Positions 3,486 through 18,577 of a DNA stretch of 49,081 nucleotides are shown here, one piece after another. Position 1 is the stretch's first letter. The number at the start of each line of letters is the position of its first letter. Made by a program: the position numbers and the translations under genes. Origin of the DNA: an uncultured Lachnospiraceae bacterium (GTDB lineage Bacteria; Bacillota; Clostridia; Lachnospirales; Lachnospiraceae). The notes beneath the pieces were generated by a model that made no database searches, was not told the DNA's origin, and was given only the letters and a program-made list of their open reading frames with translations. Where the stretch lies: positions 1 through 49,081 of the forward strand of contig CALWGM010000141.1 of the NCBI GenBank assembly GCA_944380065.1, written 5' to 3'.

Positions 3486-3592
3486 AGTCTGCAGAGGAAA
3501 AGGAAGATGCTGTGCAGGCAGAAGTAATTCAGCACAGAAACGAGGCTCACAGAATTTTGAAAAGATGATTCAGACATCGGGTGGAAAAGAAT

Positions 3593-4063: not shown

Positions 4064-4111
4064 GAGACATGGATAAAATCAGATTTTTATGTTTATAATT
4101 GATTGTGCAGA

Positions 4112-4408
4112 ATGACCGCCAGGAAAACGCAGCAGATGAGTTTTTCCGGTGGTTGTTTTTGTCAGATAGAAATTGCGGCAGTGGAAGGGAAAGAGCCTGT
4201 AATAGAAGAACGTTTTGATCCGGACAGAACAATCTTAACACTGGAATTTGTTGAAAAAGAAATAGACAACAAAAACAAGCGAAGAAAACAAGCGAAGAAA
4301 ACAAGCGAAGAAAGCAAGCGAAGAAAGCAAGCGAAGAAAACAAGCGAAGAAAAAACTGATATGAAGGTGAGTACTCATATTTTGATTGGGGTAGAGAAGT
4401 GCGTTTGA
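4112..4408 (+). CDS. Doubtful short ORF containing the tandem repeat
   Basis: An open frame of about 98 residues. The first half has no recognised family (it includes SGGCFCQIEIAAVEGKEP and RFDPDRTILTLEF); the second half is Lys/Glu/Arg-rich because it reads through six 13-nt repeats, which encode a 13-residue period. No convincing ribosome binding site precedes the ATG at 4112 or the TTG at 4103. It could be a gene remnant or a spurious ORF created by the repeat, and I do not assign a function. Confidence 0.25.
   Translation: MTARKTQQMSFSGGCFCQIEIAAVEGKEPVIEERFDPDRTILTLEFVEKEIDNKNKRRKQAKKTSEESKRRKQAKKTSEEKTDMKVSTHILIGVEKCV
4276..4353 (+). repeat. Six tandem copies of a 13-nt unit
   Basis: Six uninterrupted units of CAAGCGAAGAAAR start at 4276, 4289, 4302, 4315, 4328 and 4341. 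Only the last base varies (A or G). The unit length is not a multiple of three, so the repeat cycles through frames. It lies upstream of the agrC-like gene. Copy number could vary by slipped-strand replication; the function is unknown. Confidence 0.95.
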
Positions 4409-4420
4409 GATAACATTCTT

Positions 4421-4462
4421 TATAATATATCACAAAAAGTTCATATTTATGCTATAATATAT
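4421..4462 (+). promoter_or_regulatory. Candidate promoter region of the agrCA-like operon with a LytTR-like box
   Basis: The decamer TATAATATAT occurs twice, at 4421-4430 and 4453-4462. The second copy gives a consensus -10 (TATAAT 4453-4458) about 50 nt before the kinase start. Between them AAAGTTCAT (4436-4444) fits, as I recall it, the 9-nt LytTR box consensus, at a position that would replace a poor -35. Only one clear box is present whereas direct pairs are usual, so autoregulation by the downstream regulator is a guess. Confidence 0.35.
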
Positions 4463-4507
4463 AAAGATATTATGCTGATTCAGTATAAAAAACGGGGAGC
4501 ATGGAGG

Positions 4508-5815
4508 ATGGCATTTTATATTGTAAGTTTTTGCGGATATTTTTTACTTATAAGTAACTGTATTACATTTCGAATGAAGGCTCGCTATTATTTTCTGCTG
4601 GCGGGGATGATCGGCGCTTTTATTTTTGTCGGAATACCACTGATCGGAGAGATCTCGGTGGTGTTGATGTATCTCTGCGTAATGGTTCTGCTGGCAATAT
4701 TAAAACGGGAGGATACCGTCTGGAATATTCTTTCCCTGGTGTTTGTATATGCGATTTCAGCGATTCTGGACAATGTGGTTGGCGCAATTTTCAGTATGTT
4801 TGGTATAAATCTGCAGCAGCATATGTGGCTGTATGCACTGATTGTATGGCCTGAATTTGTGCTGATCAGCCGTTTTATTTCCGGAAAGATCAGACAGATC
4901 AGACAGCGGGCGTCTGTGGTGTTCCCTCTGCGCATTACGGTTGTATTGGCGGCAAATGTAATTTTGTGTATGCTGATTTTTATCGTGCAGGTGCTGTTCG
5001 AGCGGATGGTGGGAAGTTCTTCCACTCTTCTCTGGGGGAATGTACTTTTGTTTGCTGCCTATTTTGCACTGACGTTTTTTATGGTTTACGTCTTTGTAAA
5101 AGAATACAGTAAAAATGCGGAGATGAAGGTGAAACAGCAGTCCTATGAGAACCTGCGGATTTATATGGCGCAGATCGAAGAGCTGTATCAGCAGCTTCGG
5201 GGATTTAAGCACGATTATGCGAATATCATGGCCAGCATGGCTTCCTATATCGAGACGGAGGATCTGGAGGGGCTGAAGACATACTATGAGAGGGAGATTC
5301 TGCCGGTCAGTGTGAAGATCAGCAGGGGGAATGATGCGGTAGTGAAGCTGCATAATCTGAATATTTTAGAGCTGAAGAGCCTGCTGTCCCTGAAGCTGAA
5401 CTATGCGCTGGAGCTGAACATCGAGGTGGCGCTGGAGATCACGGAGCAGATTGACCGGGTGGAGATGAAGACGCTGGATCTGGTGAGGGTCATGGGAATT
5501 TTGCTGGACAATGCGATTGAAGCCTGCCAGGAATGCGAACGGCCCGGGCTGCAGATTGCCGTGATCCGCATGGAGGAGAATGTTACATTCATTATCCGCA
5601 ATACCTACGTGCAGCATGATCTGGATTATTCCAGACTGGGGACGGCGGGCGTCAGTTCGAAGGGAGAGCAGCGCGGCATCGGCCTGTATAATATCAGGCG
5701 GATTCTGAAGGAATATGAGAATGTCTTTCTGGATACGGAGTACGGGGATGGATTCTTTACGCAGACCCTGCAGGTCTGTGAGAGCAAAGACGACAGGGAG
5801 GAAATGGAAAAGTGA
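4508..5815 (+). CDS. AgrC-like sensor histidine kinase (GHKL ATPase)
   Basis: This ~435-residue protein has an N-terminal region of about six to seven hydrophobic segments (roughly residues 1-200) like AgrC peptide sensors. A dimerisation segment carries the phospho-acceptor His at about residue 235 in RGFKHDYANI. The C-terminal GHKL ATPase has an N box (LDNAIEACQ) and a G box (QRGIGLYNIRRIL). It probably senses an extracellular cyclic peptide and phosphorylates the downstream LytTR regulator. The frame is open from ATG 4472, but ATG 4508 with GGGGAG about 8 nt upstream is the likelier start. It overlaps the regulator gene by 4 nt (GTGA). Confidence 0.88.
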   Translation: MAFYIVSFCGYFLLISNCITFRMKARYYFLLAGMIGAFIFVGIPLIGEISVVLMYLCVMVLLAILKREDTVWNILSLVFVYAISAILDNVVGAIFSMFGINLQQHMWLYALIVWPEFVLISRFISGKIRQIRQRASVVFPLRITVVLAANVILCMLIFIVQVLFERMVGSSSTLLWGNVLLFAAYFALTFFMVYVFVKEYSKNAEMKVKQQSYENLRIYMAQIEELYQQLRGFKHDYANIMASMASYIETEDLEGLKTYYEREILPVSVKISRGNDAVVKLHNLNILELKSLLSLKLNYALELNIEVALEITEQIDRVEMKTLDLVRVMGILLDNAIEACQECERPGLQIAVIRMEENVTFIIRNTYVQHDLDYSRLGTAGVSSKGEQRGIGLYNIRRILKEYENVFLDTEYGDGFFTQTLQVCESKDDREEMEK

Positions 5816-6546
5816 TCGACATATATATCTGTGAGGATATTCAGAAGCAGAGGGAGCGGATTGCTTACTACGTGGAGACCGCCATTATGATCGAGGAATA
5901 CGATATGGAGCTGAAGCTGGCGACGGATGATGCGGGTGCGTTTCTGCAGGCTGTGAAGAAATCAAAAAATACGGGCTTATATTTTCTGGATATTGACCTG
6001 GGAAGCGGGAAAAACGGGCTGGAGCTGGCGCGGGAGATCCGGGAGTATGATCCGCGGGGCTTTATCGTTTTTGTGACGTCCCACTCTGAAATGTCGTTGC
6101 TGACCTTCCAGTACAAGGTGGAAGCGCTGGACTTTATCGTCAAGGATGACCCGCAAAATATTCAGCGCCGGATCGCGGAGTGCATGGAGAAGGCGATTCA
6201 GAGATCGGAGAATATATCCCGGGGAGAGGGCAGGACGCTGACCATTGTGCGGGGCGGCCAGAGGATCACGCTGAAGCAGGATGAGATCCTGTTTTTTGAG
6301 ACTTCTGTGAACGAGCATAAGCTGATCGTTCATACCGGCCAGAAGTCCATGGAATTTTCCGGAAAAATCAGGGAAATCGAACAGGAAGCGGGAGAGGATT
6401 TTCTGCGGTGCCACAGATCTTATCTGATCAATAAGAAGAATGTAAAAGAGGTGGATTACAGCAATAAGATCATCCGCATGAAAGACGGATCGGAGTGTCC
6501 GATCGCCAGCCGGATGCTCAGCCAGGTAAAACGGCAGTTAAAATAA
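5812..6546 (+). CDS. AgrA-like LytTR-family response regulator
   Basis: The 244-residue product has a receiver domain (residues 1-~125) with acidic IYICEDIQKQ, the likely phospho-acceptor Asp60 in YFLDIDLG, and a signalling Ser/Thr/Lys region (FVTSHSEM ... FIVKDD). The C-terminal LytTR DNA-binding domain (about 140-244) has ILFFETSVNEHKLIVHT and FLRCHRSYLINKKNV, typical of AgrA/ComE proteins that bind paired GTT-containing boxes. It starts with GTG inside the stop codon of the kinase gene, so the two are co-translated. The probable targets are the divergent agrB and biosynthetic promoters nearby. Confidence 0.9.
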   Translation: MIDIYICEDIQKQRERIAYYVETAIMIEEYDMELKLATDDAGAFLQAVKKSKNTGLYFLDIDLGSGKNGLELAREIREYDPRGFIVFVTSHSEMSLLTFQYKVEALDFIVKDDPQNIQRRIAECMEKAIQRSENISRGEGRTLTIVRGGQRITLKQDEILFFETSVNEHKLIVHTGQKSMEFSGKIREIEQEAGEDFLRCHRSYLINKKNVKEVDYSNKIIRMKDGSECPIASRMLSQVKRQLK

Positions 6547-6576
6547 AAACGTGTTTTTGTGAGGAAGCGGTAAAAG

Positions 6577-6620
6577 AAGCAGCCGGTTCCGTTTGCCAGA
6601 GCAGACGGAACCGGCTGCTT
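6577..6620. terminator. Bidirectional hairpin terminator between agrA-like and agrB-like genes
   Basis: A perfect 16-bp stem: AAGCAGCCGGTTCCGT at 6577-6592 and ACGGAACCGGCTGCTT at 6605-6620, with a 12-nt loop. It lies between convergent genes ending at 6546 (+) and 6642 (-). T-rich bases flank each side (TTTGCATTT on the plus, CTTCTTTTA on the minus), consistent with use in both directions. Confidence 0.8.
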
Positions 6621-6641
6621 TGCATTTGGTATGTCGGCTGT

Positions 6642-7217
6642 TTAGTCAGCCGGTTCAGAAGATTTTTTTCTGAAAACCGGGGACAGAAAGAGCGCAGCAA
6701 ACAGCATGGCGGGAAGAATACACGAGCGGATTGGGGGGAGGAAAATTGCAGCGCAGGACAGAGTGATGGATGCGATTCGCAGTCTTCGTTTCTGCAGTCT
6801 GCTGTAGGAATCAGAAAAAGGATTTTTTGCCGTTCCTCTGGGCGTATGGGACAGAAATATGGCGTTCAGGTCAATGCACAGCAGAATCGTGACTGGCAGG
6901 GAAAAAGCAATGAACTGTGCACATTTTCCCGATCCGACAATCACTGCGGTGGTGGTAAGCAGACATTTCGCCATGCTGTTGCAGTGATAGCCTCCGGCCA
7001 GAATCCGGAAAGTGCCGAACACAGCGAATATTAGGAGGCTGGTCAGGAAACAGCGGCAAATAGCGGCGAGGATCAGGATGACAGATATGACAAAAACATT
7101 GTATGCAAACACCTGCAGTCCATAAATCAGTTGTTTCCGCCGCGCTTCTGAACACAAGGTATCTTTTGTGAGAAAATCTGTAATTTTTTCTATGGTCGAA
7201 TAAAAAATATGTTCCAT
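6642..7217 (-). CDS. AgrB-like membrane endopeptidase (accessory gene regulator B)
   Basis: This 191-residue membrane protein has the AgrB signature FRILAGGYHCNSMAKCLL, with His78 and Cys85 spaced like the catalytic His77/Cys84 of Staphylococcus aureus AgrB. Several hydrophobic segments follow (about 35-55, 58-72, 86-105, 107-125, 145-175). AgrB cleaves the C terminus of the AgrD propeptide and forms the (thio)lactone ring. It is encoded opposite to the kinase/regulator pair and divergent from the biosynthetic operon, not in the canonical agrBDCA order. An AAAGGAG site precedes the ATG. No agrD-like frame follows it on the same strand, because the next bases form the terminator hairpin. Confidence 0.9.
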   Translation of the reverse strand: MEHIFYSTIEKITDFLTKDTLCSEARRKQLIYGLQVFAYNVFVISVILILAAICRCFLTSLLIFAVFGTFRILAGGYHCNSMAKCLLTTTAVIVGSGKCAQFIAFSLPVTILLCIDLNAIFLSHTPRGTAKNPFSDSYSRLQKRRLRIASITLSCAAIFLPPIRSCILPAMLFAALFLSPVFRKKSSEPAD

Positions 7218-7251
7218 TGTGAGAAAAACTCCTTTTTCATTTTATAAAAAA

Positions 7252-7260
7252 AGTATAACA
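7252..7260 (-). promoter_or_regulatory. Extended -10 promoter for the agrB-like gene
   Basis: On the minus strand the sequence reads TGTTATACT, an extended -10 (TGn plus TATACT at 7252-7257), about 35 nt before the agrB ATG. No good -35 hexamer lies 17 nt upstream (CCTCCG), which fits an activator-assisted promoter. This is inferred from sequence only. Confidence 0.45.
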
Positions 7261-7300
7261 GAAAAGATCGGAATCGGAGGAATATTTCCCAGACGCGGAG

Positions 7301-7345
7301 AAAAAGCACGTTCAGGCCGGTTCAGATGGCGTGAACGTACTTTTT
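7301..7345. promoter_or_regulatory. Inverted repeat between divergent agrB-like and biosynthetic operon
   Basis: Arms AAAAAGCACGTTCA (7301-7314) and TGAACGTACTTTTT (7332-7345) match at 13 of 14 positions around a 17-nt spacer. Each arm contains an ACGTTCA core similar to a LytTR box, and a further GGTTCAG lies in the spacer. It could be an AgrA-type operator for both divergent promoters or a bidirectional insulating hairpin with T runs on both strands. The sequence alone does not decide. Confidence 0.5.
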
Positions 7346-7416
7346 ACCGGGGAGAGGATACGGTTGCGACATCATTTCCGCTTTTCAGGAAAAAAACGGG
7401 TTTCCGGGGATGTGCA

Positions 7417-7425
7417 TGGTAAACT
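7417..7425 (+). promoter_or_regulatory. Weak candidate -10 for the biosynthetic operon
   Basis: TGGTAAACT is an extended -10-like element (TG at 7417-7418, TAAACT at 7420-7425) about 33 nt upstream of the ATG at 7458. No -35 match is visible, so dependence on an activator such as the AgrA-like regulator would be needed. Low confidence. Confidence 0.25.
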
Positions 7426-7457
7426 TGAGTCATCAACAGACAGGAGATGAGGAAACG

Positions 7458-7667
7458 ATGGAATATGTAAGAAACTTAAAAGAAACCGGGATTGAGTTAC
7501 TGTGCAGGTTTGGGAGATTTGGTGTTGGAAAATCCATAATTGCAGGAATGTTCGAATTTGAGATCCCGAAAGAATGCCGAAGTTGCAGTGCAGATCAGTG
7601 GGACAGAGAAAAATGGAGTGAAACCGGAGGACGGGCAGATGAGACGGGAAACTATGATCTGCTGTGA
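7458..7667 (+). CDS. Candidate AgrD-like autoinducer propeptide
   Basis: A 69-residue frame with a GAGG site 5 nt before the ATG. Its layout recalls AgrD: an amphipathic N-terminal helix (about residues 1-20), then FGVGKSIIAGMF, then an acidic Pro-containing segment EFEIPKE, reminiscent of EVEVPKEL in staphylococcal AgrD. Ser26 followed by Ile-Ile-Ala-Gly could give a five-membered lactone ring. It is longer than usual (AgrD is mostly 40-50 residues): after Glu42 there is a hydrophilic tail to residue 69, and the 3' end overlaps the next gene by 29 nt. It could instead be a non-AgrD leader ORF. The call rests on pattern and on the adjacent agrB, not on a search. Confidence 0.5.
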   Translation: MEYVRNLKETGIELLCRFGRFGVGKSIIAGMFEFEIPKECRSCSADQWDREKWSETGGRADETGNYDLL

Positions 7668-8631
7668 TGAATATTTACTTGGGAAGATGTCACATCATTT
7701 GTCGTATGAAGATCTGGTTCTGGCAAATGGGATTGCGAATTCTATGAGAAGTTTTTCTTATGGAGGAATGGAAATCCGGTTTCCCTGCGGACGCTGGAAT
7801 GTAGATTTCCGGAATCTTCTGGAGTCCATGCACATTGCCTGGCAGAACAGAACAGTATCGGATCTGCTGCGCAGTACCTGTTTTGACCGCTTCATTGTTT
7901 TGGCTCCGAAAGAATTTTTGGAGGATTTTCAGAAGCTGAAAACAGATGTCACTCAGATTGCTGTCGTATATTCTGCCTTTCAAATCACAGAATGTGATGG
8001 ACAGCAGATCCGGTTACAGCTTTCCGGCGGAGATGGCGGCGAAAAGATTACTTTACCGATATACCAGTTAAAGGTATTGGAAAATCTATCAGCGGTTCCC
8101 GGCGGGAATGGGCTGAAGATCGTAGAAATTGCGGAAAAACAATCTTATATTTCCCGGGAAATGATCCGGAAAAACATGGTGGACAGTTTACAGAATTGTC
8201 TGATCGACCGGGAATATGAAAAGGAAGGCTGCCATTGCATTTCGGGTCCGGCATTTTACGATTTGTTTGAAAAAAGTATTTATGACCTGTATGAAATGGG
8301 CGGCAGCCAGGCGGTTTCAAGGGTGCGGAGGCACATTTTCATATCCAGCCTGAATACCGGCGGAGAAGCCTTTTTCAGAGGAGCTTTTTTCTATTGGTAT
8401 ATGAAGCGGCAGATGCGAGCTGATAGGAATTCGAAAAAATATTCTGAAAGAATGGAATTGTTAGTAAAATTGTGGAATGAACTGTGCAGGAAAATGCGTT
8501 TCTGGGAAGCAGGCGATTTCGCAGGAGACAAGGTTCAGGAACTGGTTGTCCTGATCCGGAAGATCAGAAAGCTGGAACCGGAAACCGTGCAGTTTTTGAC
8601 AGACAGAGAGGTGGGGAGAAATGATTTGTGA
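7639..8631 (+). CDS. Unrecognised 330-residue protein of the RiPP cluster
   Basis: I do not recognise a family. The frame is open from 7540, but ATG 7639 has GGAGG 8 nt upstream and is preferred. The protein looks soluble with alternating alpha/beta character: an N-terminal part with EIRFPCGRWNVDFRNLLESM, a middle part with IVEIAEKQSYISREMIRKNMVDSL (possibly a helix-turn-helix-like stretch), and a C-terminal Lys/Arg/Glu-rich helical part. Cysteines occur but no metal motif is clear. It overlaps the radical SAM gene by 11 nt, so it is probably co-translated and dedicated to peptide maturation, perhaps as a partner or substrate-recognition protein. Confidence 0.7.
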   Translation: MRRETMICCDEYLLGKMSHHLSYEDLVLANGIANSMRSFSYGGMEIRFPCGRWNVDFRNLLESMHIAWQNRTVSDLLRSTCFDRFIVLAPKEFLEDFQKLKTDVTQIAVVYSAFQITECDGQQIRLQLSGGDGGEKITLPIYQLKVLENLSAVPGGNGLKIVEIAEKQSYISREMIRKNMVDSLQNCLIDREYEKEGCHCISGPAFYDLFEKSIYDLYEMGGSQAVSRVRRHIFISSLNTGGEAFFRGAFFYWYMKRQMRADRNSKKYSERMELLVKLWNELCRKMRFWEAGDFAGDKVQELVVLIRKIRKLEPETVQFLTDREVGRNDL

Positions 8632-9907
8632 TCTGGGGCAGTCTGTATATTTTGATAATACGAATCTGTATATTATCCACGGGGAAGACCATTTGCAGCA
8701 GTATGAGGAAGAGATAGAGCAGTATCCGGAAATCCGACACAGGACGCACGAAAAACGGTATCCGACTCTGATTTTCCTTTCAGCGACGGCGTGTAATCTG
8801 CACTGCAAATATTGTTATGCGGAGGCCGGAACTTATGGAAATGTGTCGGAAGAAAAACAGTTTACTTTTGAAAAATACAGATATTGTTATGAAACAGCCA
8901 GAAAAATCTTTGGAGGAGTAAAAGCAATCAGCTTTTTTGGAGGAGAACCTCTTCTGAATTATCCGGAGATCAGGCGCTTTGTAGAGTATTTGCATAACAC
9001 ATATGCCAAAGATGAGATTCCGGAAATGGCGGTATCCTCAAATGGAACGATTATGAACGGGGATATAAAAGCGTTTTTGAAAAAGTATCAGATTGCGTTT
9101 TCCACCAGTCTGGATGGGACAAAGTTTTACAATGATTATAACCGGATTGGCGATGGAGTAGAAAGCGTGTATGACGCTGTAGTAAAAACGCTGCAGGAGC
9201 TGGAAGATACCGGGATAGAGAAAGGACTGCAGTTGACTTTTTCGAAAATACATTTGCAGCATTACCGTAAAGACGATGCGAAAAAATGGCTGGAAGAGAT
9301 AGAGAAGCTGGGGATCAGTAATTATGCCATGGTGGCTGCGACTACCGATCATCCGGACTGCCATATTGATTTGAAAGATCCGGAAATCTGCCGCAATTAT
9401 GTGCAAATGTGCAACGACATGGCAGATTATTATCTGGAACAGATTCTTCAGGGGGAGAAAATATATTCCTATATATTTCCCGGTATGCTTCTGCGTATTA
9501 TAAAAAGAGAGTATCAGGAGGATTGCAATGCGGGATTTTCGATCGCCCTATCGCCGGATCTGAGAGTGTACCCGTGTCATGTGTGCGCGGATAAAGCAGA
9601 AAACGGATTTGAGTTTGATGAGGATTTTCTGAAAAAGAAAAAAGAGCATACATTTTTCTCCGGGATAGAGCATCTGGGAAGGGAAAATACCGACGCCTGC
9701 CGGAAATGTGTGGCCTATGCAATCTGCCCGAGTTTCTGCAAGGGAATGGTGTCCGAAAATGAGTATCAGGAAGTAGATGAAAGATGTCTGATGTATCAGA
9801 TTTTTGCCGGGAGAGCAGTTCTGTTTTTGGCAAACGAATATAAGAATCATAAGGAAGAAATCAAAGCGTCCTTGAAAGCGGTGTCAGAAAATGCGCGAAA
9901 AAAGTGA
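8621..9907 (+). CDS. Radical SAM/SPASM peptide maturase
   Basis: This 428-residue protein has the radical SAM Cys58-x3-Cys62-x2-Cys65 motif (ACNLHCKYCY), the SAM-binding GGEPLLNYPEI block, and a C-terminal SPASM-type region with Cys302, Cys319, Cys322, Cys360, Cys363, Cys369, Cys373 and Cys389, enough for auxiliary [4Fe-4S] clusters. Enzymes of this build modify ribosomal peptides, for example by sactionine thioether or C-C crosslinks. The first ~45 residues may be a peptide-recognition extension. The start has GGGGAGAA directly upstream. The likely substrate is the short peptide encoded at 11140-11298. Its family resembles the Cys-rich-peptide maturases of Clostridia, which I could not confirm. 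Confidence 0.9.
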   Translation: MICDLGQSVYFDNTNLYIIHGEDHLQQYEEEIEQYPEIRHRTHEKRYPTLIFLSATACNLHCKYCYAEAGTYGNVSEEKQFTFEKYRYCYETARKIFGGVKAISFFGGEPLLNYPEIRRFVEYLHNTYAKDEIPEMAVSSNGTIMNGDIKAFLKKYQIAFSTSLDGTKFYNDYNRIGDGVESVYDAVVKTLQELEDTGIEKGLQLTFSKIHLQHYRKDDAKKWLEEIEKLGISNYAMVAATTDHPDCHIDLKDPEICRNYVQMCNDMADYYLEQILQGEKIYSYIFPGMLLRIIKREYQEDCNAGFSIALSPDLRVYPCHVCADKAENGFEFDEDFLKKKKEHTFFSGIEHLGRENTDACRKCVAYAICPSFCKGMVSENEYQEVDERCLMYQIFAGRAVLFLANEYKNHKEEIKASLKAVSENARKK

Positions 9908-11006
9908 GATCCGGCTGAAAGAAGATTTCAGGTATGTGGAAAACAGAACTTTGCTGGGGAAAAAACTGGTAGTTGGTTTAAAAAACAGTAATTCGTATGT
10001 ACAGATACCGGAGAAGTATCGGGAGAGTTTCTATACGTTTGTTTATAAAATCCAGAACAATTTGACACGGAACAGGTTGTCGGATCAGGAAATGACATTA
10101 TATGAGCTCTTCAGAAAACACGGATATTTTGAAGGGGCGAAAGATGTCAGGCCGTCTTTTAATGAATACAATTCTCTGGTGAAAGTTTTCTGGAAAATGG
10201 ATTTTCCCAAAAGCGGAACATCTGAGGTAATGCGCTGGAAGAAAGGGATCGTTTACTGTCTGTTCTTTCTGATCTGTGTTTTGGGAACTCTGATATTTTT
10301 TCAGAATTATCAATATGTTGATTATGTGATTGATTTGCGGAAATTTTCGGTTTTGGAAATTGTACTGAGTATTACATTGGTTCCCTGTCTGATAGATGGA
10401 ATACATGAGTTCGGACATTTTGTTATGGCAAGGTTGCTGGGAATAGAACCGAAAGATATTAATATTGGTTTTTTTGTGACATGGCCGGTGATTTATATTC
10501 GTTATAAGGGACTGAATCTGAATTCCACGTTAGACAAAGTATGTGTTCTGTCCGGCGGTGTGATCGGACATTTGGCTGGAATTGTAATTGGGAAATGTCT
10601 TCTCATGGCCGGTGTGGATTCCAATGTACTGAGCATATGGATTGTGGCAAATGTAAGCATGATTGTCTCGAATTTGCTGCCCGGACTTCCCGGAGACGGG
10701 TATTTTATACTGGCATCGGTGATTGGCATTTTCAATCTCCGGTATAAAGGTTATAAAAATCTGTTTCTGGTTCTGAAAAATGGAAGAAAACTTTTTTCAA
10801 AAGATGTTATCTGTCCGGCTATTATGCTGGGATTATGGATTCATTCATTTATCGGAATCTTTAAGTCTATGGATTATTATGGAAAGGTTTTTATGATACA
10901 GGGAGATGTAATTATAATCGCAGGAATCATTTATGTGGCAATTCTGGCGGCACGCTTTCTCTGGAAGCTTTCGAAGATGAGAAGGCAGTTTGAGGTTGTG
11001 AATTAA
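9891..11006 (+). CDS. M50 (site-2-type) membrane metalloprotease
   Basis: This 371-residue protein has a soluble N-terminal region (about 1-115) and then several membrane segments. The zinc motif HEFGH is at residues 172-176 within GIHEFGHFVMARLLG. A second motif NLLPGLPGDGYF supplies the third ligand (Asp269), as in the NxxPxxPxDG signature of site-2 proteases. More membrane helices follow to the C terminus. In RiPP clusters such proteases are candidates for leader removal or membrane-linked processing; they can also serve in immunity or signalling. The start lies 17 nt inside the radical SAM gene, indicating coupling. Confidence 0.85.
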   Translation: MREKSEIRLKEDFRYVENRTLLGKKLVVGLKNSNSYVQIPEKYRESFYTFVYKIQNNLTRNRLSDQEMTLYELFRKHGYFEGAKDVRPSFNEYNSLVKVFWKMDFPKSGTSEVMRWKKGIVYCLFFLICVLGTLIFFQNYQYVDYVIDLRKFSVLEIVLSITLVPCLIDGIHEFGHFVMARLLGIEPKDINIGFFVTWPVIYIRYKGLNLNSTLDKVCVLSGGVIGHLAGIVIGKCLLMAGVDSNVLSIWIVANVSMIVSNLLPGLPGDGYFILASVIGIFNLRYKGYKNLFLVLKNGRKLFSKDVICPAIMLGLWIHSFIGIFKSMDYYGKVFMIQGDVIIIAGIIYVAILAARFLWKLSKMRRQFEVVN

Positions 11007-11096
11007 TATTTTATATAATTCAAAGTCAGATGAAGAAGGGGGGCTTAAAAAATGGCGTGGAAACATAAGTAGCGAAAAATGAAGATGGTAGAGAAT

Positions 11097-11102
11097 TATA
11101 AT
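11097..11102 (+). promoter_or_regulatory. Candidate -10 element upstream of the precursor peptide gene
   Basis: A perfect TATAAT about 38 nt before the peptide ATG, in the 133-nt gap after the protease gene. The -35 position is A-rich (about 11074-11079) with no TTGACA match. A separate, activator-dependent promoter would explain high precursor expression, but it may be chance in A/T-rich DNA. Confidence 0.35.
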
Positions 11103-11139
11103 ATGTAAGAACAGATTTAAAGTAAAAAAGGAGAAAAAT

Positions 11140-11298
11140 ATGATGAAAGAATTAATCAAGGAAAAGAAAATGGAAAATCTGAAAACACAGAATACGAAAG
11201 AAATGAATGAGGGGATTGAAACCTTTGCCGATTTTGAGGAAGTAGAAGATATTGTTACGGCAGGAAGCAAAGGTTCGATTGGGTGTTGCAATAACTAG
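11140..11298 (+). CDS. RiPP precursor-like peptide (52 residues)
   Basis: A short frame with AAAGGAG about 7 nt upstream of tandem ATG codons (11140 and 11143). The N-terminal ~40 residues are charged and Lys/Glu-rich (MMKELIKEKKMENLK, then ETFADFEEVEDIV), a leader-like composition. The C terminus TAGSKGSIGCCNN is small, Gly/Ser-rich and holds the only two cysteines as an adjacent pair. It follows the radical SAM and protease genes and precedes the transporters, the expected place for a substrate peptide. A core of roughly 10 residues after Ala-Gly is inferred. No other short peptide in the cluster fits this role as well. Confidence 0.7.
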   Translation: MMKELIKEKKMENLKTQNTKEMNEGIETFADFEEVEDIVTAGSKGSIGCCNN

Positions 11299-11306
11299 AC
11301 TGAGAA

Positions 11307-11348
11307 AATACCTGCCATATGTTAAATAATTAACATATGGCAGGTATT
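11307..11348 (+). terminator. Perfect 19-bp hairpin after the precursor gene
   Basis: AATACCTGCCATATGTTAA (11307-11325) and its exact reverse complement (11330-11348) flank a 4-nt ATAA loop, starting 9 nt after the peptide stop codon. The hairpin is not followed by a T run (GGTTAGTGC), so it is not a textbook intrinsic terminator. It may protect the precursor mRNA 3' end or reduce read-through into the transporter genes. Confidence 0.7.
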
Positions 11349-11473
11349 GGTTAGTGCAAGAATTGCTAAAGAGTAGATCATGATTAGATGTTCATTTTTT
11401 AGGGAATTTTTATGGAAGAAATTGCGGGAAAAGAAATCACGATATAAATGCATGGATACCGGAGGAGTAACTC

Positions 11474-13372
11474 ATGGGAAAGATGGTTATGCTGCTGCGT
11501 GCAAGCAGTAAAAAAGAGAAAAGATTTCTATATATATCTTATTTGCTGGATGTTTTTTTAATATCCATTGTATTGATGATTGTGAAATTACTGGAAGAGA
11601 CTTCCTTTGATCTGTCGGCCTCGGATGCAGGTCAGTCGGCGATGATGGCGACAGGAATTATATTAGTTGCGGTGATGATTATTGTTTTTTTCCTCTGGCT
11701 GATCGCAATGGAGTTTAAGGGGTTATATGACAGCAGGGCTGTCTTTAATCGAAACGTAAAGCTTATGGGGTGTCCGGGGAGAAAATTGATGATGCTGTAT
11801 ATTCTGGAAATGCTGTATATGCAGATTCCCTGTGTGGCGGGGGGATGTGTACTGGGGGCAGCTGTCTATCATTTTTATGCGGTAGGGAATTCAGAAGTGA
11901 TTGTATGGATGAAACCGGGAATTCTGGTTGCAGCGATTGTCATCCATATGTGCATTCTGTTTCTGACTGTCGCAATTGTTGGCAGGCAATGTGTGCGGCA
12001 GAGCGCAGTGACAGAACAGCGGGGCGGGTATGTCCGCAAAGAAAAAAGACCGGTATCAATAATCGTTCAGTTGATCATTGTGGCGGCGGCGGTTTTCGTG
12101 ATTCAGGGAGTCTGCAGGAAAATGGAGACATTGTTTTCGGCGACAGACGCTCTGGTGTATACGCAGGCGCTGAAACTGGCATATATGGCGGTGGTTGCTT
12201 TGGGTTTTGCACCTGTTATGAGACTGGTATTTGCGATAGCGGATGCGATCGGAAAGAGAGCGGGAGCATTCCATTTTGTGATCAGCCTGAAGCTGACGAA
12301 AAGCTACTGGGGAAGATTTTTAGTGATGACGTTCCTGATTATTTTCAGCGGCGCTTTTTTCAGCGGATTATACGCCCTGTTTGGAACGACCCGTACCAGT
12401 GCAGATAATCTGTCAAGGGAAAGTATTCATTATCAGAGTTATTATATCTTTAATCAGACAGAGGCGCGGGGCGCAGATGAGAGGGACGATGAGGCTTTTT
12501 ATACGCTCCGATACCGGGCGCAAATGGAAGATGGCGGTCATATCTGGGTGACAGGAATTAACGATCAGTATTTGAAAGAATATGAAACTTTTCAACTGGC
12601 AGAGTTGACAGCGGATGGAGAAACTCCGGAGTTGACGGCAGATGAAAGACTGATGGATGCCGTAGATCGGGACGATTTTGACGGTATTATTTTGCCGCAT
12701 GATTTTCTGGGGCTGAATGGTGAGAAAATTACACTGACAATCAATCATCAGGATGTTACATTCACAATTTATGCATGTGTACTGTCTCATGCTATAGATC
12801 GAATGGATGCATATGTCAGCAGAGCTTATCTGGAAAAACAATTAGGAGCGGATGGCCTGTATAATACCGTTTTTTATATGGAGGAGCCGGAAGCGGTCGA
12901 TATGGATCATGTTTCTGTGTCGCAGACGAATGAGCAGATCTGGGAGGAGAATTACGATCATGTTGTGCAGGGAACAGAAACCATGGAGCTGATCTTCTGG
13001 ATGATTTTGATTTGTTCTATATTCGCAGTATGCACCTGCCTGGTGATGTCCGGATTTGATAATGAGAGGAATCTCGCGTATTTGCAGGGACTTGGCACAG
13101 GGAAAAAGGTTTTGAGAAAGATTTATATTTTTCAGGTGATCTGGAATGTCGCCTGTACGGTGCTGCCGGTTTCATTTTTGACGTATATTTTTGCAAAAGG
13201 AATCGGATACCTGCTGTTGAATCCGGGTTACTATCAGGGCAAGTTTTCGGTGAATTCGGCAGATTTGACTGCGTTGTTTGTGGTATATCTGGCAGTATCT
13301 ATAGCGATGCAGTTATTTATGATCAAAAAAGCGACGAACAATGAGAAATATATTCGGGTGCTCAGAAGCTGA
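11474..13372 (+). CDS. FtsX/BceB-type ABC transporter permease
   Basis: This 632-residue protein has about ten membrane segments: pairs near residues 20-40 and 55-85, several to ~320, then a large extracytoplasmic domain (about 325-505), and C-terminal helices starting MELIFWMILICSIFAVCTCLVM with the FtsX-like region. BceB-type permeases with this length and layout confer resistance to, or export, antimicrobial peptides. GGAGGAG precedes the ATG. The ATPase gene follows 65 nt downstream. In context it most likely handles the cluster's own peptide as export or self-immunity. Confidence 0.85.
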   Translation: MGKMVMLLRASSKKEKRFLYISYLLDVFLISIVLMIVKLLEETSFDLSASDAGQSAMMATGIILVAVMIIVFFLWLIAMEFKGLYDSRAVFNRNVKLMGCPGRKLMMLYILEMLYMQIPCVAGGCVLGAAVYHFYAVGNSEVIVWMKPGILVAAIVIHMCILFLTVAIVGRQCVRQSAVTEQRGGYVRKEKRPVSIIVQLIIVAAAVFVIQGVCRKMETLFSATDALVYTQALKLAYMAVVALGFAPVMRLVFAIADAIGKRAGAFHFVISLKLTKSYWGRFLVMTFLIIFSGAFFSGLYALFGTTRTSADNLSRESIHYQSYYIFNQTEARGADERDDEAFYTLRYRAQMEDGGHIWVTGINDQYLKEYETFQLAELTADGETPELTADERLMDAVDRDDFDGIILPHDFLGLNGEKITLTINHQDVTFTIYACVLSHAIDRMDAYVSRAYLEKQLGADGLYNTVFYMEEPEAVDMDHVSVSQTNEQIWEENYDHVVQGTETMELIFWMILICSIFAVCTCLVMSGFDNERNLAYLQGLGTGKKVLRKIYIFQVIWNVACTVLPVSFLTYIFAKGIGYLLLNPGYYQGKFSVNSADLTALFVVYLAVSIAMQLFMIKKATNNEKYIRVLRS

Positions 13373-13437
13373 TGGAAATCAGAAAGTAGGAAGACAGTAA
13401 ATAGTAAAGGATGCTTTTCATTGTGGAGGGAATAAAT

Positions 13438-14112
13438 ATGAGATCTGCGGCGACAGTAGAAAACCTGACATATACCATACAGGAGGCAGGAAGAGATCGT
13501 TGTATTTTGAAAAATATAAATTATGATTTTGAACAGGGAATGATATATACCATATCCGGTCCGTCCGGTTCCGGGAAAACCACATTTTTATATGCAATTG
13601 CCGGGCTTCTGGATCGTGTGCAGGGGCGTGTGAAAATCGGGGATACAGAAATTCTGGCGCAAAAACGCAGTGTGCGCGACCGTATCCGTCTGAATCAGAT
13701 CGGAATGGTTTTTCAGAATCTGAATCTGTTTGACTTTATGAACGTGGAAGATAACCTGTTGATGCCGTATTATCTGAGAAAACAGAAGATACCGATGCTT
13801 GTGCACAGGCAGATACAGGAGTATCTGGATCAACTGAATCTGGGGCAGATTCAGAAGAAGCAGATCAGCGCCCTTTCGGGCGGGGAGCAGCAGAGAGTGG
13901 CGATCATTCGGGCGATTGTATCCAAACCGCAGATCATTCTCTGTGATGAACCGACGGCGAGTCTGGACAGTCAGAATGTGCACATTTTTATGGAGGCCTT
14001 GCTGAAATTGCAGCGGGAAAGCAGGAGTACCATTATTATAGTGACACATGATCAGCGGGTATATGATTATGGAGATAAAAAAATTCAGATCATGGATGGC
14101 GTGCTGAAGTAA
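13438..14112 (+). CDS. ABC transporter ATP-binding protein (BceA/LolD-like)
   Basis: A 224-residue MacB/BceA-type ATPase. Walker A is SGPSGSGKTT near residue 38, the Q loop is in IGMVFQNLNLFDFM, the signature is LSGGEQQRVAIIRA, Walker B is IILCDEPTASLD, and the switch His lies in IIVTHDQRV. It energises the preceding permease. The frame is open from 13411, but ATG 13438 with GGAGGG 7 nt upstream is preferred. Confidence 0.92.
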   Translation: MRSAATVENLTYTIQEAGRDRCILKNINYDFEQGMIYTISGPSGSGKTTFLYAIAGLLDRVQGRVKIGDTEILAQKRSVRDRIRLNQIGMVFQNLNLFDFMNVEDNLLMPYYLRKQKIPMLVHRQIQEYLDQLNLGQIQKKQISALSGGEQQRVAIIRAIVSKPQIILCDEPTASLDSQNVHIFMEALLKLQRESRSTIIIVTHDQRVYDYGDKKIQIMDGVLK

Positions 14113-14125
14113 GAAATGAAATCTG

Positions 14126-14165
14126 TTTGCAGACATCTGTGCGGAGACGGACAGATGCCTGCAAA
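14126..14165 (+). terminator. Hairpin after the ABC ATPase gene
   Basis: Arms TTTGCAGACATCTGT (14126-14140) and ACAGATGCCTGCAAA (14151-14165) pair at 14 of 15 positions around a 10-nt loop, 14 nt after the ATPase stop. No long T run follows (TATATGATTTT), so it may be a weak terminator or mRNA-stabilising element. Confidence 0.6.
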
Positions 14166-14173
14166 TATATGAT

Positions 14174-14230
14174 TTTACCAAGGGAAATATCCAGCTATAT
14201 TCCCGCAGGTATGACAGATGCTATGGTAAA
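14174..14230 (+). promoter_or_regulatory. Nested inverted repeats in the leader of the acyl-adenylating gene
   Basis: An outer pair TTTACCA (14174-14180) and TGGTAAA (14224-14230) encloses an inner near-match GGGAAATAT (14182-14190) and ATATTCCC (14197-14204). The structure ends just before the GAGGAG site of the next gene. It could be an operator or an RNA fold affecting translation; no known riboswitch class is recognised. Confidence 0.35.
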
Positions 14231-14247
14231 TGAGTGAGGAGACGATT

Positions 14248-16032
14248 ATGAAGAGAGGGACATTGGCACAGTTGATAGAGGACAGGAGCTGTCAAAATGC
14301 AGATAAGATATTTGTAACAGAAAGAGACGGAGAACAGTTGGTGAGCAGGACATATGCGCAATTAAAAGCAGATGTAGATAAACTGGCGCTTTATCTGAGG
14401 CTTCATGTGGGAACCGGAGAGAAGATAGCGCTTGCAGGGGAGAACAGTTATCAGTGGATTCTGGTTTATTTAGCTGTGATTTATAGTGGAAATATTATTT
14501 TGCCATTGGACTATAGGCTGCTGGAAACAGAGGAAAATGATTTGCTCCGGATGATGCAGGTATCTCTTTTGTTTGTACAGGATAAATATGCTTCCGAAGA
14601 AATCACGAATGAAACGCAGTGCCAAAAAATCCTGATGGCATCCGGGGGACAGGGGGATTTAGACGAGATTTTAAGTCAGAAAATAATGGATTCCTCTGTC
14701 TGTTTTACAGAGTCGGTACAGGAGACAGATATTTGTACGATCTTATTTACCTCCGGGACAACAAGTAAACGAAAGGGCGTTGTTCTGACGCAGGGACAGA
14801 TCTATAGCAATATTTGTTCTCTTTGCGCACGAATGGATGAGACAACAGGAAAACGGGGATATGGAGTCCTGCCGCTTTTCCATGCATTCGCTCTTCTATG
14901 CGATTTGTGGCGGACGATATATCTGGGAACCTCTTTTTATGTTTTAGGGGAAATGAAATATTTTTTTCGGGAATTGACGGTATATGAACCGGATTATATG
15001 TTTCTGGTGCCGGAGATTGCTGAAAGTATCCTGAAAGAATTAAAAAGACGATCCGGAGCCTGCCCGGACAGAAAGACAGAGAAACTCAGAGATGAGGTGC
15101 TGGGAAGGAATTTAAGTATACTAATATCCGGAGGAGCAGCGCTGCCGCCGTCTCTGGTAGAAGAATTTGAAAAGGCAGGCGTAATGCTGCTTCGCGGATA
15201 TGGAATGACAGAATGTTCTCCTGTGATTGCAGTCCTGTCTCATAAAGAACACGTGGACAACAGAACAGTCGGGAAACCTCTGGATTGCAATGAAGTGCAG
15301 ATTCAGGACGGAGAGATCTGTGTGCGGGGCAAAAATGTCATGCTGGGATATTATCAGGATCCGGAGGCAACGTCCGAGATCTTGCGTGAGGGTTGGCTTC
15401 ATACGGGGGATATGGGCTATTTATCTGAAGAGGGATATTTGTATGTGACCGGCAGAAAAAAAGAAATGATTGTTCTGAAAAATGGAGAAAATGTTTCGCC
15501 TGCGGCGCCGGAAAGCCTGTTGCGGGAGAAAGATGTTGTTTCTGACGCGTTAGTGTATTCCTATACCGATGCGCAGGGAGAGGAACTGCGGGCAATCTTT
15601 GAGGTGGAAAACGGGATGGAGGAAAAAGTCAGGGAGATAGTTGATCAATATAATCGGGAACAGCCCTGCTGCAGAAAGATCCGCAGGTATGACTGTGCAG
15701 ACGGTGTGATTTCGAAAACGGCGACGGGAAAACGGAACCGGCGGGAAAGCCTGAAACGGTTTCTGTTACAGATGATACGGAAACAGATAGAGGACTGTAT
15801 CAATGATCTTGTGCTGACGCCGGTGAAGCTGTCGGAAGAAATGCGGTTATATGAGGATCTGGAGCTGGATTCTTTTGAGATGGTACGCCTGGCGGGAAGT
15901 CTGGAAGATGTTTTCCACATAGAGCTGGAATTACAGAAAGTATCTGCTTTTCTTACAGTCAATGATGTGTGCACTTACATTTTGGAACAGCTTTATCAGA
16001 TAGATGGGACTGGGGTAGTATGTCATGCGTAA
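14248..16032 (+). CDS. AMP-dependent acyl-adenylating enzyme fused to an acyl carrier domain
   Basis: About 594 residues. The adenylate-forming domain (1-~510) has ILFTSGTTSKRKG (phosphate loop), the GYGMTECSPV motif, the hinge region YVTGRKKEMIVLKNGENVSP, and the C-terminal catalytic Lys495 in SKTATGKRNR, closest to long-chain acyl-CoA/acyl-ACP synthetases. A C-terminal carrier domain (~515-594) has Ser542 in LELDSFEM, a phosphopantetheine attachment site. It should activate a carboxylic acid, probably a fatty acid, and load it onto its own carrier. In a peptide cluster this suggests acylation of the product. ATG 14248 with GAGGAG upstream is preferred over ATG 14230. Confidence 0.87.
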   Translation: MKRGTLAQLIEDRSCQNADKIFVTERDGEQLVSRTYAQLKADVDKLALYLRLHVGTGEKIALAGENSYQWILVYLAVIYSGNIILPLDYRLLETEENDLLRMMQVSLLFVQDKYASEEITNETQCQKILMASGGQGDLDEILSQKIMDSSVCFTESVQETDICTILFTSGTTSKRKGVVLTQGQIYSNICSLCARMDETTGKRGYGVLPLFHAFALLCDLWRTIYLGTSFYVLGEMKYFFRELTVYEPDYMFLVPEIAESILKELKRRSGACPDRKTEKLRDEVLGRNLSILISGGAALPPSLVEEFEKAGVMLLRGYGMTECSPVIAVLSHKEHVDNRTVGKPLDCNEVQIQDGEICVRGKNVMLGYYQDPEATSEILREGWLHTGDMGYLSEEGYLYVTGRKKEMIVLKNGENVSPAAPESLLREKDVVSDALVYSYTDAQGEELRAIFEVENGMEEKVREIVDQYNREQPCCRKIRRYDCADGVISKTATGKRNRRESLKRFLLQMIRKQIEDCINDLVLTPVKLSEEMRLYEDLELDSFEMVRLAGSLEDVFHIELELQKVSAFLTVNDVCTYILEQLYQIDGTGVVCHA

Positions 16033-16718
16033 TCAGAATGAACAGCGTCACAAAAGAGAAGAAGGGAAGGCGCATTCTCAGTAGTCTTTCCCTGCAGGTG
16101 GAAGAGGCGGAAATCTACGGTCTTCTGGGAAGCAACGGGGCGGGGAAAACCAGCGTCATACGGCTGCTTTTAAATCTCTGGCGGCCCACGGAGGGCGAAG
16201 TGGAGATCTTCGGCCGGCGGATTGTGGAATCTTCCTGCCTGTACCGACGGCAGATCGGCGTGGTGTGGGAACATCCTGTTTTCCGGGAGCGGCTCACCGG
16301 CAGGGAGAATCTGGAATTGCACTGTGCTTATATGGATAATGCAGACAGCGGTAATATCCGCCGGACGATAGCGCTTCTGGGGCTGAAGGAGATGGCGGAT
16401 GTGCCGGTGCAGGCGTATTCGGAGGGGATGAGACGGCGGCTGGACATTGCCAGAGCGGTGGTGACGAAACCGGAGCTGCTGCTTCTGGATGAGCCGTTTC
16501 AGAAGCTTGATCTGAAAAACAGAGAAAATCTGGCCCTGTTTCTGAGATTGCTCCGGGAGCGGCTGGGCACGTCGGTTCTGATTACAGCCGGTTCGGCGGA
16601 TGATCTGAACGGGCTGGCAGACCGGATCGGCTTTCTGGAGGCTGGAGCGATGGTCCGCGAACTGGATGCGGAAGCATATGCAGAGTGGCTGGCGGAACAG
16701 AAAAAGGCGGTGTGGTGA
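16020..16718 (+). CDS. ABC transporter ATP-binding protein (lantibiotic-immunity type)
   Basis: A 232-residue ATPase: Walker A in LLGSNGAGKTS near residue 39, VWEHPVFRERLTGRENL at the Q-loop region, a degenerate signature YSEGMRRRLDIARA, and Walker B LLLLDEPFQKLD. The switch His is replaced in the segment VLITAGSADDL, as happens in some members. It resembles LanF/BcrA-type ATPases used for producer immunity. It overlaps the acyl-adenylating gene by 13 nt. G/C content rises again here compared with the preceding genes. Confidence 0.85.
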   Translation: MSCVIRMNSVTKEKKGRRILSSLSLQVEEAEIYGLLGSNGAGKTSVIRLLLNLWRPTEGEVEIFGRRIVESSCLYRRQIGVVWEHPVFRERLTGRENLELHCAYMDNADSGNIRRTIALLGLKEMADVPVQAYSEGMRRRLDIARAVVTKPELLLLDEPFQKLDLKNRENLALFLRLLRERLGTSVLITAGSADDLNGLADRIGFLEAGAMVRELDAEAYAEWLAEQKKAVW

Positions 16719-16719
16719 T

Positions 16720-17373
16720 ATGAGCACAATTTTTCGGCTGATTTATCTGGAATGGAAACAGTGTAGCAGGAAACTGCATTTATGGAATACAGTGGGAATT
16801 GCCTGTATCGGTTTTCTGGCAGCCTGGGGCATGAGTCAGGGCAGACAGATAGAAGATGTATCATGGTTGAGCTGGCCTGTGGATCTGTGCTTTATGGTAT
16901 ACAGTAATGTACTGTTTGCAGTTTGTGTTATGGACAGATGTCAGGGGGCGGCTGCAGAGAGACTTTTTTCTTATCCGTTCCGTCTGCGCAGTTTGGTGTC
17001 AGCGCAGGTGGGGGCTGTGTGGATTCGGATGGCTGTTACATGGATTCTGTCCAGAGTATGGATTGTTGGCAGTGTAGCTCTGATTTGCCGGTCGGAGAAA
17101 ATTGATATAGAATGGGGTGGGTATGGATTTCTTGCACTGCTATTGGATGTGGTTTCCGTGTTGAATGGATGTTTCGTTCCGCTCATAATTGGTGTGTGTT
17201 TGAGAACGGCCAAAGTGGGAGCCGCCTGCTCTGTTTTATCAGCGGTGTTAGTAAGACGGATTGCAGTATCGGGTGGTGTGGCGACCCATGTCTGTTGTTG
17301 TCTTTTGTCAACAGGGATTGTTGTATCCCTGGTATTCCTGATGCTCAGAGTGCTGGAAAAGCGGGAAATATAA
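16720..17373 (+). CDS. ABC transporter membrane subunit (ABC-2-like)
   Basis: A 217-residue hydrophobic protein with about six membrane segments (near residues 22-40, 50-70, 95-120, 132-155, 160-180, 185-210) and EWKQCSR at the N terminus, as in LanE/LanG-type permeases. It starts one base after the stop of the ATPase gene, so the two form a unit. No recognisable catalytic feature. It probably completes the immunity/export transporter of the cluster and is the last gene of the island. Confidence 0.75.
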   Translation: MSTIFRLIYLEWKQCSRKLHLWNTVGIACIGFLAAWGMSQGRQIEDVSWLSWPVDLCFMVYSNVLFAVCVMDRCQGAAAERLFSYPFRLRSLVSAQVGAVWIRMAVTWILSRVWIVGSVALICRSEKIDIEWGGYGFLALLLDVVSVLNGCFVPLIIGVCLRTAKVGAACSVLSAVLVRRIAVSGGVATHVCCCLLSTGIVVSLVFLMLRVLEKREI

Positions 17374-17424
17374 AGGACTGACTGTGAATTCGATTCATTG
17401 CAGGAAAGACTTCTTAAAAAGTAA

Positions 17425-18366: not shown

Positions 18367-18503
18367 ATCTTCAGTCCTCAAAACGCATATCGTGTTTCTC
18401 CCGTACAGGGGAAGCGTTCCTAAATGATAGCACAAAATCTGCGGATTTCAATGGATTGTCGCGGAAAAAATACAGAAAACCTGTATAGATATGCAAAAAA
18501 GAT

Positions 18504-18531: not shown

Positions 18532-18577
18532 GTACCTATCTGTGAGTAATAATTTATATAGAAAAGAGGAAAAAGAT

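Follow-up and report, generated by a model that had tools for sequence, protein, structure and literature searches.

What does a compact gene block in a 49,081-nucleotide stretch of DNA from an uncultured Lachnospiraceae bacterium (contig CALWGM010000141.1; this whole stretch is called the window below) make? An earlier note on the sequence had described an agr-controlled island for a ribosomally synthesized and post-translationally modified peptide (RiPP), altered by a radical S-adenosylmethionine (SAM) enzyme and possibly lipidated. We found that the block, at approximately 4056-17460 (13 kb), holds 12 clear genes (precursor included) and a weak AgrD candidate, with agrB alone on the minus strand and the other genes on the plus strand. 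Family scans and translations confirmed all of the components listed in that note save a convincing AgrD; its inventory otherwise matched but lacked one gene, which encodes a 330-residue protein that profile comparison ties, by way of intermediates, to BtrH-like proteins (7639-8631). Judging from the sequences, the chances are about even that the block is a cluster for an acylated, radical-SAM-modified short RiPP.

The biosynthetic genes and their relatives

The radical SAM/SPASM peptide maturase (428 residues, 8621-9907; Pfam Radical_SAM 55.4 bits) carries a CxxxCxxC motif, read as CNLHCKYC, and seven further SPASM-type cysteines, all invariant in five aligned sequences; with this motif and its C-terminal auxiliary-cluster cysteines, the predicted window enzyme has the features of a radical SAM/SPASM protein, and Pfam SPASM gave no match for it. 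Its scores were below the NCBIfam cut-offs for PapB (NF047865; 110 bits, cut-off 340, highest in the best 25 of 65 matches), the SCIFF maturase (TIGR03974; 80.4 bits, cut-off 425) and CcpM (TIGR04068; 74.1 bits, cut-off 500), placing it outside each of these families, and the best Protein Data Bank (PDB) chain for its profile was 5wgg, which we take to be CteB. The M50-like intramembrane metalloprotease (371 residues, 9891-11006), recognized by eye from its HEFGH motif, scored 21.2 bits with Pfam (cut-off 27.2), 39.6 bits with the NCBIfam daptide model and 37.4 bits with the epipeptide M50 model (NF058609, YydH/LiaK; cut-off 225), in each case below the threshold for membership. Such proteases are precedented in epipeptides and pearlins (PMC10885120). 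Export would fall to an FtsX-type ATP-binding cassette (ABC) permease (632 residues, 11474-13372; Pfam FtsX 19.9 bits, cut-off 25.5) and its ATPase (233 residues, 13411-14112; NCBIfam bacteriocin-export ABC 181.1 bits, cut-off 254.85). Searched by blastp, the permease had relatives in L012, L023 and L063, loci introduced below.

The next gene encodes an acyl-AMP ligase that bears an acyl carrier domain at its C-terminus (600 residues, 14230-16032; Pfam AMP-binding 213.8 bits and PP-binding 23.8 bits), in which the adenylation motifs and the carrier serine (DSF) are visible by eye. Its 34 PDB relatives at E<=1e-20 were oxalate-, fatty-acyl-, coumaroyl- and succinylbenzoate-CoA ligases and luciferases, the best being an oxalate-CoA ligase and a fatty-acyl-CoA synthase and the weakest a fatty acyl-AMP ligase. 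Because this resemblance is to acyl-CoA ligases in general, the acid cannot be named; the acyl-loading part of the earlier suggestion of lipidation stands, but a lipid is too specific. The block closes with a second ABC ATPase, part of a possible self-protection transporter (15969-16718; Pfam ABC_tran 109.5 bits; best NCBIfam matches drrA, 159.9 bits, and lantibiotic-protection ABC, 127.6 bits, both below cut-offs), and its presumed membrane partner (16666-17373), assigned from position and hydrophobic sequence and matching no Pfam or NCBIfam family.

We searched for relatives of the radical SAM protein in overlapping draws of 98, 397, 392, 79, 391 and 48 genomes. Close relatives were rare, namely one on contig 41 of genome G370 (locus L012; 43% identity) and one on contig 37 of G494 (L023; 44% over its open stretch). 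Further relatives lay on contig 72 of G551 (L024/L063; profile search, E 4.5e-67), contig 59 of G370 (L025/L072; profile search, E 1.1e-48) and contig 50 of G405 (L013/L071; E 1.2e-45). A first scan of the whole genome collection returned no relative, and a second returned L015, a second copy that overlaps L012, and three weak matches. We compared the window with L012, L023, L063, L013 and L025; L013 starts at a contig end and L023 and L063 are whole contigs, so that gene absence in these three is limited by contig ends.

In L012, which belongs to another genus, seven genes follow the window order: BtrH-like protein (26% identity), radical SAM (42%), M50 (32%), peptide (two copies), permease (26%), ATPase (46%) and the ligase fused to an acyl carrier protein (ACP; 28%, E 5e-66). 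All six loci have the radical SAM, BtrH-like, M50, FtsX-type permease and ATPase genes, a count in which L023 is decayed and several M50, FtsX and BtrH_N scores fall below Pfam cut-offs. The BtrH-like protein of L025 is the least secure assignment (BtrH_N 14.9 bits, E 0.033), and in L025 M50 and FtsX form a single protein of 1181 residues. L023 itself is a decaying copy of the cluster, with agrC fragmented, agrD and the radical SAM gene frame-broken, only an N-terminal remnant of M50 and no peptide; its BtrH-like, permease and ATPase genes remain open.

A precursor with a GxxxCC motif was present in five of the six loci and lost in the decayed L023. The window precursor (52 residues, 11140-11298, ending in FEEVEDIVTAGSKGSIGCCNN), recognized from its blastp relatives and from a pattern common to the five loci, has an acidic and hydrophobic leader (FEEVEDIVT) together with a roughly 10-residue core (SKGSIGCCNN), of which GSIGCCNN forms the C-terminal end. 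The Cys-Cys pair, with which the peptide had been said to end, is close to the C-terminus but not terminal. Searched by blastp, the window peptide found those of L012 (E 8e-8 and 6e-7), L013 (4e-5) and L025 (2e-4) and missed that of L063; the L063 and L025 peptides were first found with a loose filter (CC and an acidic pair) rather than with the window profile. Peptides of the five loci have in common E[ED][IVM]V[TC]-x(3-4)-G[STV]xxCC, and E33, E36, V39, G45, C49 and C50 (window numbering) are shared by all nine aligned peptides. The distance from the V[TC] pair to CC is eight residues in the window, L012, L025 and L013 and seven in L063, and CC is followed by two residues in the window, L012 and L025, none in L063 and 16 in L013.

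The strict pattern had no other occurrence in the 472,169 bases scanned, in which loci overlap, and was absent from 80 radical SAM loci on viral contigs (789,343 bases; best 80 of 158) and from the distant radical SAM loci of G037, G073, G063, G074, G069, G084 and G213, five of them covered by about 4 kb or less. As the pattern was written after the peptides had been seen, these counts are descriptive and not a test. Among 200 genomes of the family, the peptide profile found the window itself and a weak match in G032 (E 0.003), which we rejected as chance when inspection of the surrounding open reading frames revealed no such cluster. One further small peptide, at L026 3084-3239 in G213, ends in LGLLACC, lies just upstream of another radical SAM gene and an ABC-transporter-like gene, and does not match the family pattern.

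Carrier proteins were found in three of the six loci, as the ligase-ACP fusion in the window and L012 (PP-binding 23.8 and 20.9 bits, respectively; cut-off 20.8) and as a free ACP in L063 (37.3 bits). Because blastp with the window AgrB had missed the AgrB of L023, we checked the loci again for AgrB and ACP with small profile hidden Markov models (HMMs), built from four AgrB and three ACP sequences and thus containing their own true positives. The ACP model recovered the window, L012 (with its copy L015) and L063, and all others scored <=7.9 bits; it found no carrier protein in L013/L071, L025/L072 or L023, a result that is not firm for L013 and L023 because contig ends cut both loci. AgrB was present in two of the six loci, the window and L023 (Pfam 96.7 bits for the latter); the AgrB model gave 265.9 and 199.1 bits, respectively, and <=5.2 bits for all others. 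In L063, the same peptide type, radical SAM, M50 and BtrH-like genes stand beside the ACP and fatty-acid-type genes, which comprise a ketosynthase, a ketosynthase-like/reductase fusion, a second reductase, two FabA-like dehydratases, a class-III aminotransferase and a thioesterase, making L063 itself a candidate fatty-acid/RiPP hybrid cluster.

From these six-locus counts we conclude that the biosynthetic core is real and modular and that agr is optional. As far as sequence comparison can tell, the grouping is not accidental: a core of peptide, radical SAM, BtrH-like, M50 and exporter genes is conserved, and the acyl-carrier module recurs in two forms. The proposal of a RiPP island thus holds, since peptide, maturase, protease and exporter recur together in other genera, and acyl activation recurs with them (collinear in L012, as a free ACP in L063) without being universal. 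The earlier note had regarded regular occurrence of radical SAM homologues without the peptide, carrier enzyme or agr genes as grounds for calling the grouping accidental; homologues kept the peptide in five of six loci, the carrier in three and agr in only two, so that the objection fails for the peptide, is mixed for the carrier and largely applies to agr.

The BtrH-like protein and the proposed acylation

The 330-residue protein, a proposed carrier-to-peptide acyltransferase, was linked to BtrH by profile comparison through intermediate sequences. Its counterpart in L013, at the same position before the radical SAM gene, scored 24.4 bits against BtrH_N (E 3.6e-5; cut-off 29.7). Combined into one profile, the proteins of the window, L012 and L023 matched a profile of the L013, L025 and L063 proteins with a probability of 95.1 (E 3.4e-8, 296 columns) and L063 alone with 95.9 (E 5.5e-9); the probabilities were 2.2 against L013 alone and 0.5 against L025 alone, and controls gave <=0.4 for reversed sequences and 3.2 for a radical SAM decoy. 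When L063 was made part of the query instead, the match to L013 plus L025 had a probability of 94.8 (E 5.1e-8, 320 columns), compared to 25.4 for the query without L063; L013 against L063 alone gave 73.5, and reversed controls were <=0.3. At the other end, the L013/L025/L063 set matched 11 same-family proteins from a BtrH_N search with a probability of 53.7 (E 1.3e-4), and L013 alone, which carries most of this signal, with 64.5. The window protein and BtrH_N are thus connected stepwise, by links that are strong on the window side and moderate on the BtrH side. An N-terminal cysteine was aligned in 12 of 12 sequences, and a PDB search with the 330-residue profile returned only weak matches (best E 0.15).

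BtrH and its partner BtrG are reported to attach the AHBA group to an amine of an aminoglycoside (PMC8430323), and BtrH_N as part of an ACP:aminoglycoside acyltransferase close to C39 peptidases (PMC10318531). The BtrH-like protein could serve in acyl transfer or as a peptidase, and the presence of carrier genes favours acyl transfer. In the pathway that we propose, the radical SAM enzyme, guided by the leader, would join the paired cysteines to residues further upstream in the core by one or two thioethers; the ligase would adenylate a carboxylic acid and load its own carrier domain; and the BtrH-like cysteine enzyme would move the acyl group from the carrier to a peptide amine, most simply the new N-terminus. 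The M50 protease would cut off the leader, the FtsX-type pump would export the product, the second ABC pair would protect the producer, and the agr genes of the island may time expression. The ACP and fatty-acid-type genes of L063 are proposed as a second way of supplying acyl-ACP. Because several relatives have lysine-free cores (GWGTIGCCYA, AAGTALCC and GWGTVGCC), an acyl group common to the family would most simply sit on the peptide N-terminus.

The evidence for acylation of a radical-SAM-modified peptide is as follows. The seven-gene order is kept in L012 although the proteins, the peptide aside, are just 26-46% identical; five loci have a common peptide pattern, and L063 adds its own acyl-ACP gene set; and profiles link the 330-residue protein to BtrH-like proteins, with the adenylation motifs and carrier serine present in the ligase. 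Several observations weigh against it. The 330-residue protein matched no Pfam or NCBIfam family, and BtrH_N (PF14399) did not match it directly; compared directly, the window family gave probabilities of 0.2 against the 11-protein BtrH_N set and 0.3 against the six best BtrH_N proteins. The link passes through L063 and L013, and single comparisons with L025 were not significant. The window protein and those of L023 and L025 have no counterpart to the histidine of the C39-like pair, and an AlphaFold model of the 330-residue protein, built from two sequences, was unusable (pLDDT 36.6). L013 and L025 have BtrH-like proteins but yielded no carrier protein, so that the basic role of BtrH-like proteins may not be acyl transfer. 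We put forward tentatively, at a little under an even chance, that these loci represent a previously undescribed RiPP class, in which GxxxCC peptides would undergo crosslinking by a PapB/SCIFF-like radical SAM enzyme and N-terminal acylation by a BtrH-like (papain-fold) enzyme, with interchangeable carrier modules (a ligase-ACP fusion, or an ACP with fatty-acid-type enzymes).

Regulation and competing readings

A role of the agr genes in making or sensing a peptide signal that switches the cluster on is compatible with any of the readings discussed here. The island encodes an AgrC-like GHKL sensor kinase (447 residues, 4472-5815; Pfam HATPase_c_5 74.7 bits, NCBIfam AgrC 189.8 bits against a cut-off of 500), an AgrA-like LytTR response regulator (244 residues, 5812-6546; Pfam LytTR 76.8 and Response_reg 49.8 bits) and, divergently, AgrB (191 residues, 6642-7217, minus strand; Pfam AgrB 95.3 bits). 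The AgrB active-site motif is a histidine and a cysteine spaced by seven, and in the window protein these residues stand seven apart in GGYHCNSMAKC; by sequence, the island thus has the set expected of an agr system, AgrB with its His/Cys pair, AgrC and AgrA. None of the 19 congeners searched had an AgrB match at E<=1e-8, and in the decayed L023 AgrB adjoins the BtrH-like gene, with a GHKL fragment just upstream. Against such a switch, AgrB was not found in the DNA read around L012, L063, L013 and L025, and the AgrB of L023, inspected by eye, lacks the cysteine at the +7 position. LytTR-type regulators without AgrB lie a few kilobases from the core in L012 and L013.

In AgrD, a cysteine (or serine) closes a five-residue ring before an acidic tail. 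The AgrD candidate of the window (69 residues, 7458-7667, containing GKSIIAGMFEFEIPKEC) has no cysteine at the ring position, and by eye a serine is found only at a six-residue spacing; it had no NCBIfam match at E<=10 and only a chance-level Pfam match, and we found no better AgrD among open reading frames of at least 22 residues in 6400-7800 or in a pattern scan of 3500-18000. The frame-broken AgrD core of L023 reads, by eye, TTCMFFINQP. An inverted repeat at 6578-6621 (GCAGCCGGTTCCG...CGGAACCGGCTGC, by eye), probably a two-way terminator, lies just past the convergent agrA and agrB ends and so leaves little room for an agrD downstream of agrB. A strong hairpin at 7305-7347, with arms AGCACGTTCAGGCC and GGCGTGAACGTACT between A and T runs, separates the divergent agrB from the biosynthetic operon and is a possible terminator or attenuator; the segment 7230-7460 folds better than its shuffles (z -2.86), and neither hairpin was among the 10 sites of a terminator scan. 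Because the AgrD candidate lacks a core cysteine, the agr signal is doubtful. The proposed AgrD is not canonical, and quorum regulation was upheld only in part, by AgrB in the window and L023. By these comparisons agr is an optional regulatory add-on to the core, and an agr switch for the cluster strikes us as possible, if slightly disfavoured.

An alternative to acylation of the peptide is that the BtrH-like protein is a C39-fold leader peptidase or a recognition or scaffold protein, and that the acyl group of the ligase-carrier goes to another target, either a Ser/Thr or Lys side chain or a separate small molecule. The relationship between BtrH_N and C39 peptidases noted above (PMC10318531) fits this alternative, as does the presence of BtrH-like proteins in L013 and L025 with no carrier protein found there. 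C39 proteases are reported to cleave behind GG/GA/GS-like motifs (PMC10885120), and AG, GG and SS occur near the leader/core border of the window and L012 peptides. However, the five intact loci already have an M50 protease (L023 retains a remnant), the window protein is without the histidine of the C39 pair, and a carrier protein accompanies the BtrH-like protein in three of six loci; as carrier genes favour acyl transfer over peptidase activity, we consider this alternative unlikely.

That the product is an ordinary, non-acylated radical SAM bacteriocin with the ligase-carrier gene as a passenger is more improbable still, for although no carrier protein was found in L013/L071 and L025/L072 and the core set could work without one, the ligase-ACP gene sits in the same place in the window and L012 despite only 28% identity, which argues for a long-kept linkage, and in L063 the same type of peptide is accompanied by another set of acyl-ACP genes.

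Origin of the island and comparison with known systems

The best reading of the comparative evidence is that the block is a laterally gained cluster. In the nearest congener, G003 (locus L038), the sequence matching window 3593-4055 by blastn stops at 3114 and that matching 17461-20899 begins at 3268, leaving a gap of 153 bp. The left (3581-4063) and right (17425-18435, minus strand) neighbouring genes have their counterparts on one G003 contig, at 12148-12612 and 12734-13672; flanks were searched in 20 genomes of the genus set, the genome of the window among them. Because the flanks sit 153 bp apart in this congener, we interpret 4056-17460 as an insertion. G+C content per kilobase was 38-54% within the block compared to 53-57% and 50-56% in the flanking 4 kb on the left and right, respectively, in agreement with the A/T-richer composition noted before; it was likewise low (44-45%) at 21001-23000, outside the block. 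The start given earlier, 4508, needs revision, as the first gene begins at 4472 and the inserted segment at about 4056. A 13-bp tandem repeat (4259-4362) lies near the left boundary, within the island, in a short lysine/glutamate-rich open reading frame (4103-4408).

No relative of the radical SAM protein at E<=1e-20 was found in the 19 congeners and, as AgrB was unmatched there too, agr and the maturase occur on the island only, as far as the genus sample shows. We saw no integrase-like gene in the block by eye, and no tRNA was found in the window. Carriage by a mobile element was considered and rejected: plasmids contained no radical SAM relative at E<=1e-20, viral contigs contained none when the single window protein was the query, and a profile of five radical SAM sequences matched only distant radical SAM proteins on viral contigs (best E 7e-20, 21-34% identity, best 80 of 158).

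Clusters of the CcpM/CLI_3235 type, such as SacP23 (PMC10731318), likewise combine a radical SAM maturase, a Cys peptide, an acyl-carrier-related protein (TIGR04069) and an ABC transporter. SacP23 differs in its 42-residue Cys-rich core and predicted subtilase, and Table 3 of that paper lists no acyl-AMP ligase and no BtrH-like protein, unlike the window island. Epipeptide (Yyd/Epe) clusters also set a radical SAM enzyme, an M50 protease and an ABC exporter around a short peptide, whereas the SPASM enzyme of the window is nearest to thioether formers and is joined by BtrH-like and ligase-carrier genes. The SCIFF/CteB and PapB ranthipeptide maturases are among the closest radical SAM families, with precursors different from that of the window. 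The likeness to butirosin BtrH lies in the proposed transfer from an ACP thioester to an amine, and the difference in a relationship so distant that it is reached through intermediate sequences only.

Lipolanthines, goadvionins and selidamides are ribosomal peptides with an acyl chain (PMC9505594), as proposed for the product of the window island; the first two hybridize with polyketides (PMC9505594), and the same is proposed for L063. Selidamides use a GNAT acyltransferase acting on (hydroxy)Orn/Lys (PMC9505594). We found no GNAT or lanthionine synthetase match when the island proteins were scanned with Pfam and NCBIfam (best 25 NCBIfam rows per protein), and without a GNAT gene the island falls outside the GNAT-type lipidated RiPPs. 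None of the literature matches listed, judged by title and opening of the abstract and with subscription journals mostly uncovered, concerned a radical SAM RiPP cluster that includes a BtrH-like protein or a fused ligase-ACP. A 2022 review describes RiPP lipidation as still very rare and, besides selidamides, names lipolanthines, goadvionins and prenylated cyanobactins only (PMC9505594); nostolysamides, which are acylated lanthipeptides, are a later addition (PMC13060382). If our proposal is correct, ribosomal lipopeptides can be assembled without a GNAT enzyme, and the chemistry of RiPP lipidation would be extended by a second, unrelated acyl-transfer enzyme that is coupled with crosslinking by a radical SAM enzyme. 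The combination of peptide motif, BtrH-like protein and PapB-like radical SAM enzyme would then provide a gene handle for finding such products in anaerobes, and the ligase-carrier a compact, swappable acyl-loading module for peptide engineering. The gene set also makes the role of carrier-related proteins beside radical SAM peptide clusters testable.

Elsewhere in the window, at 23481-27771, a gene for a protein with TIR-like and Sel1-repeat segments (by eye) is followed by one for a P-loop membrane protein (25534-27771), and by eye this gene pair resembles a TIR/STAND-type defence pair.

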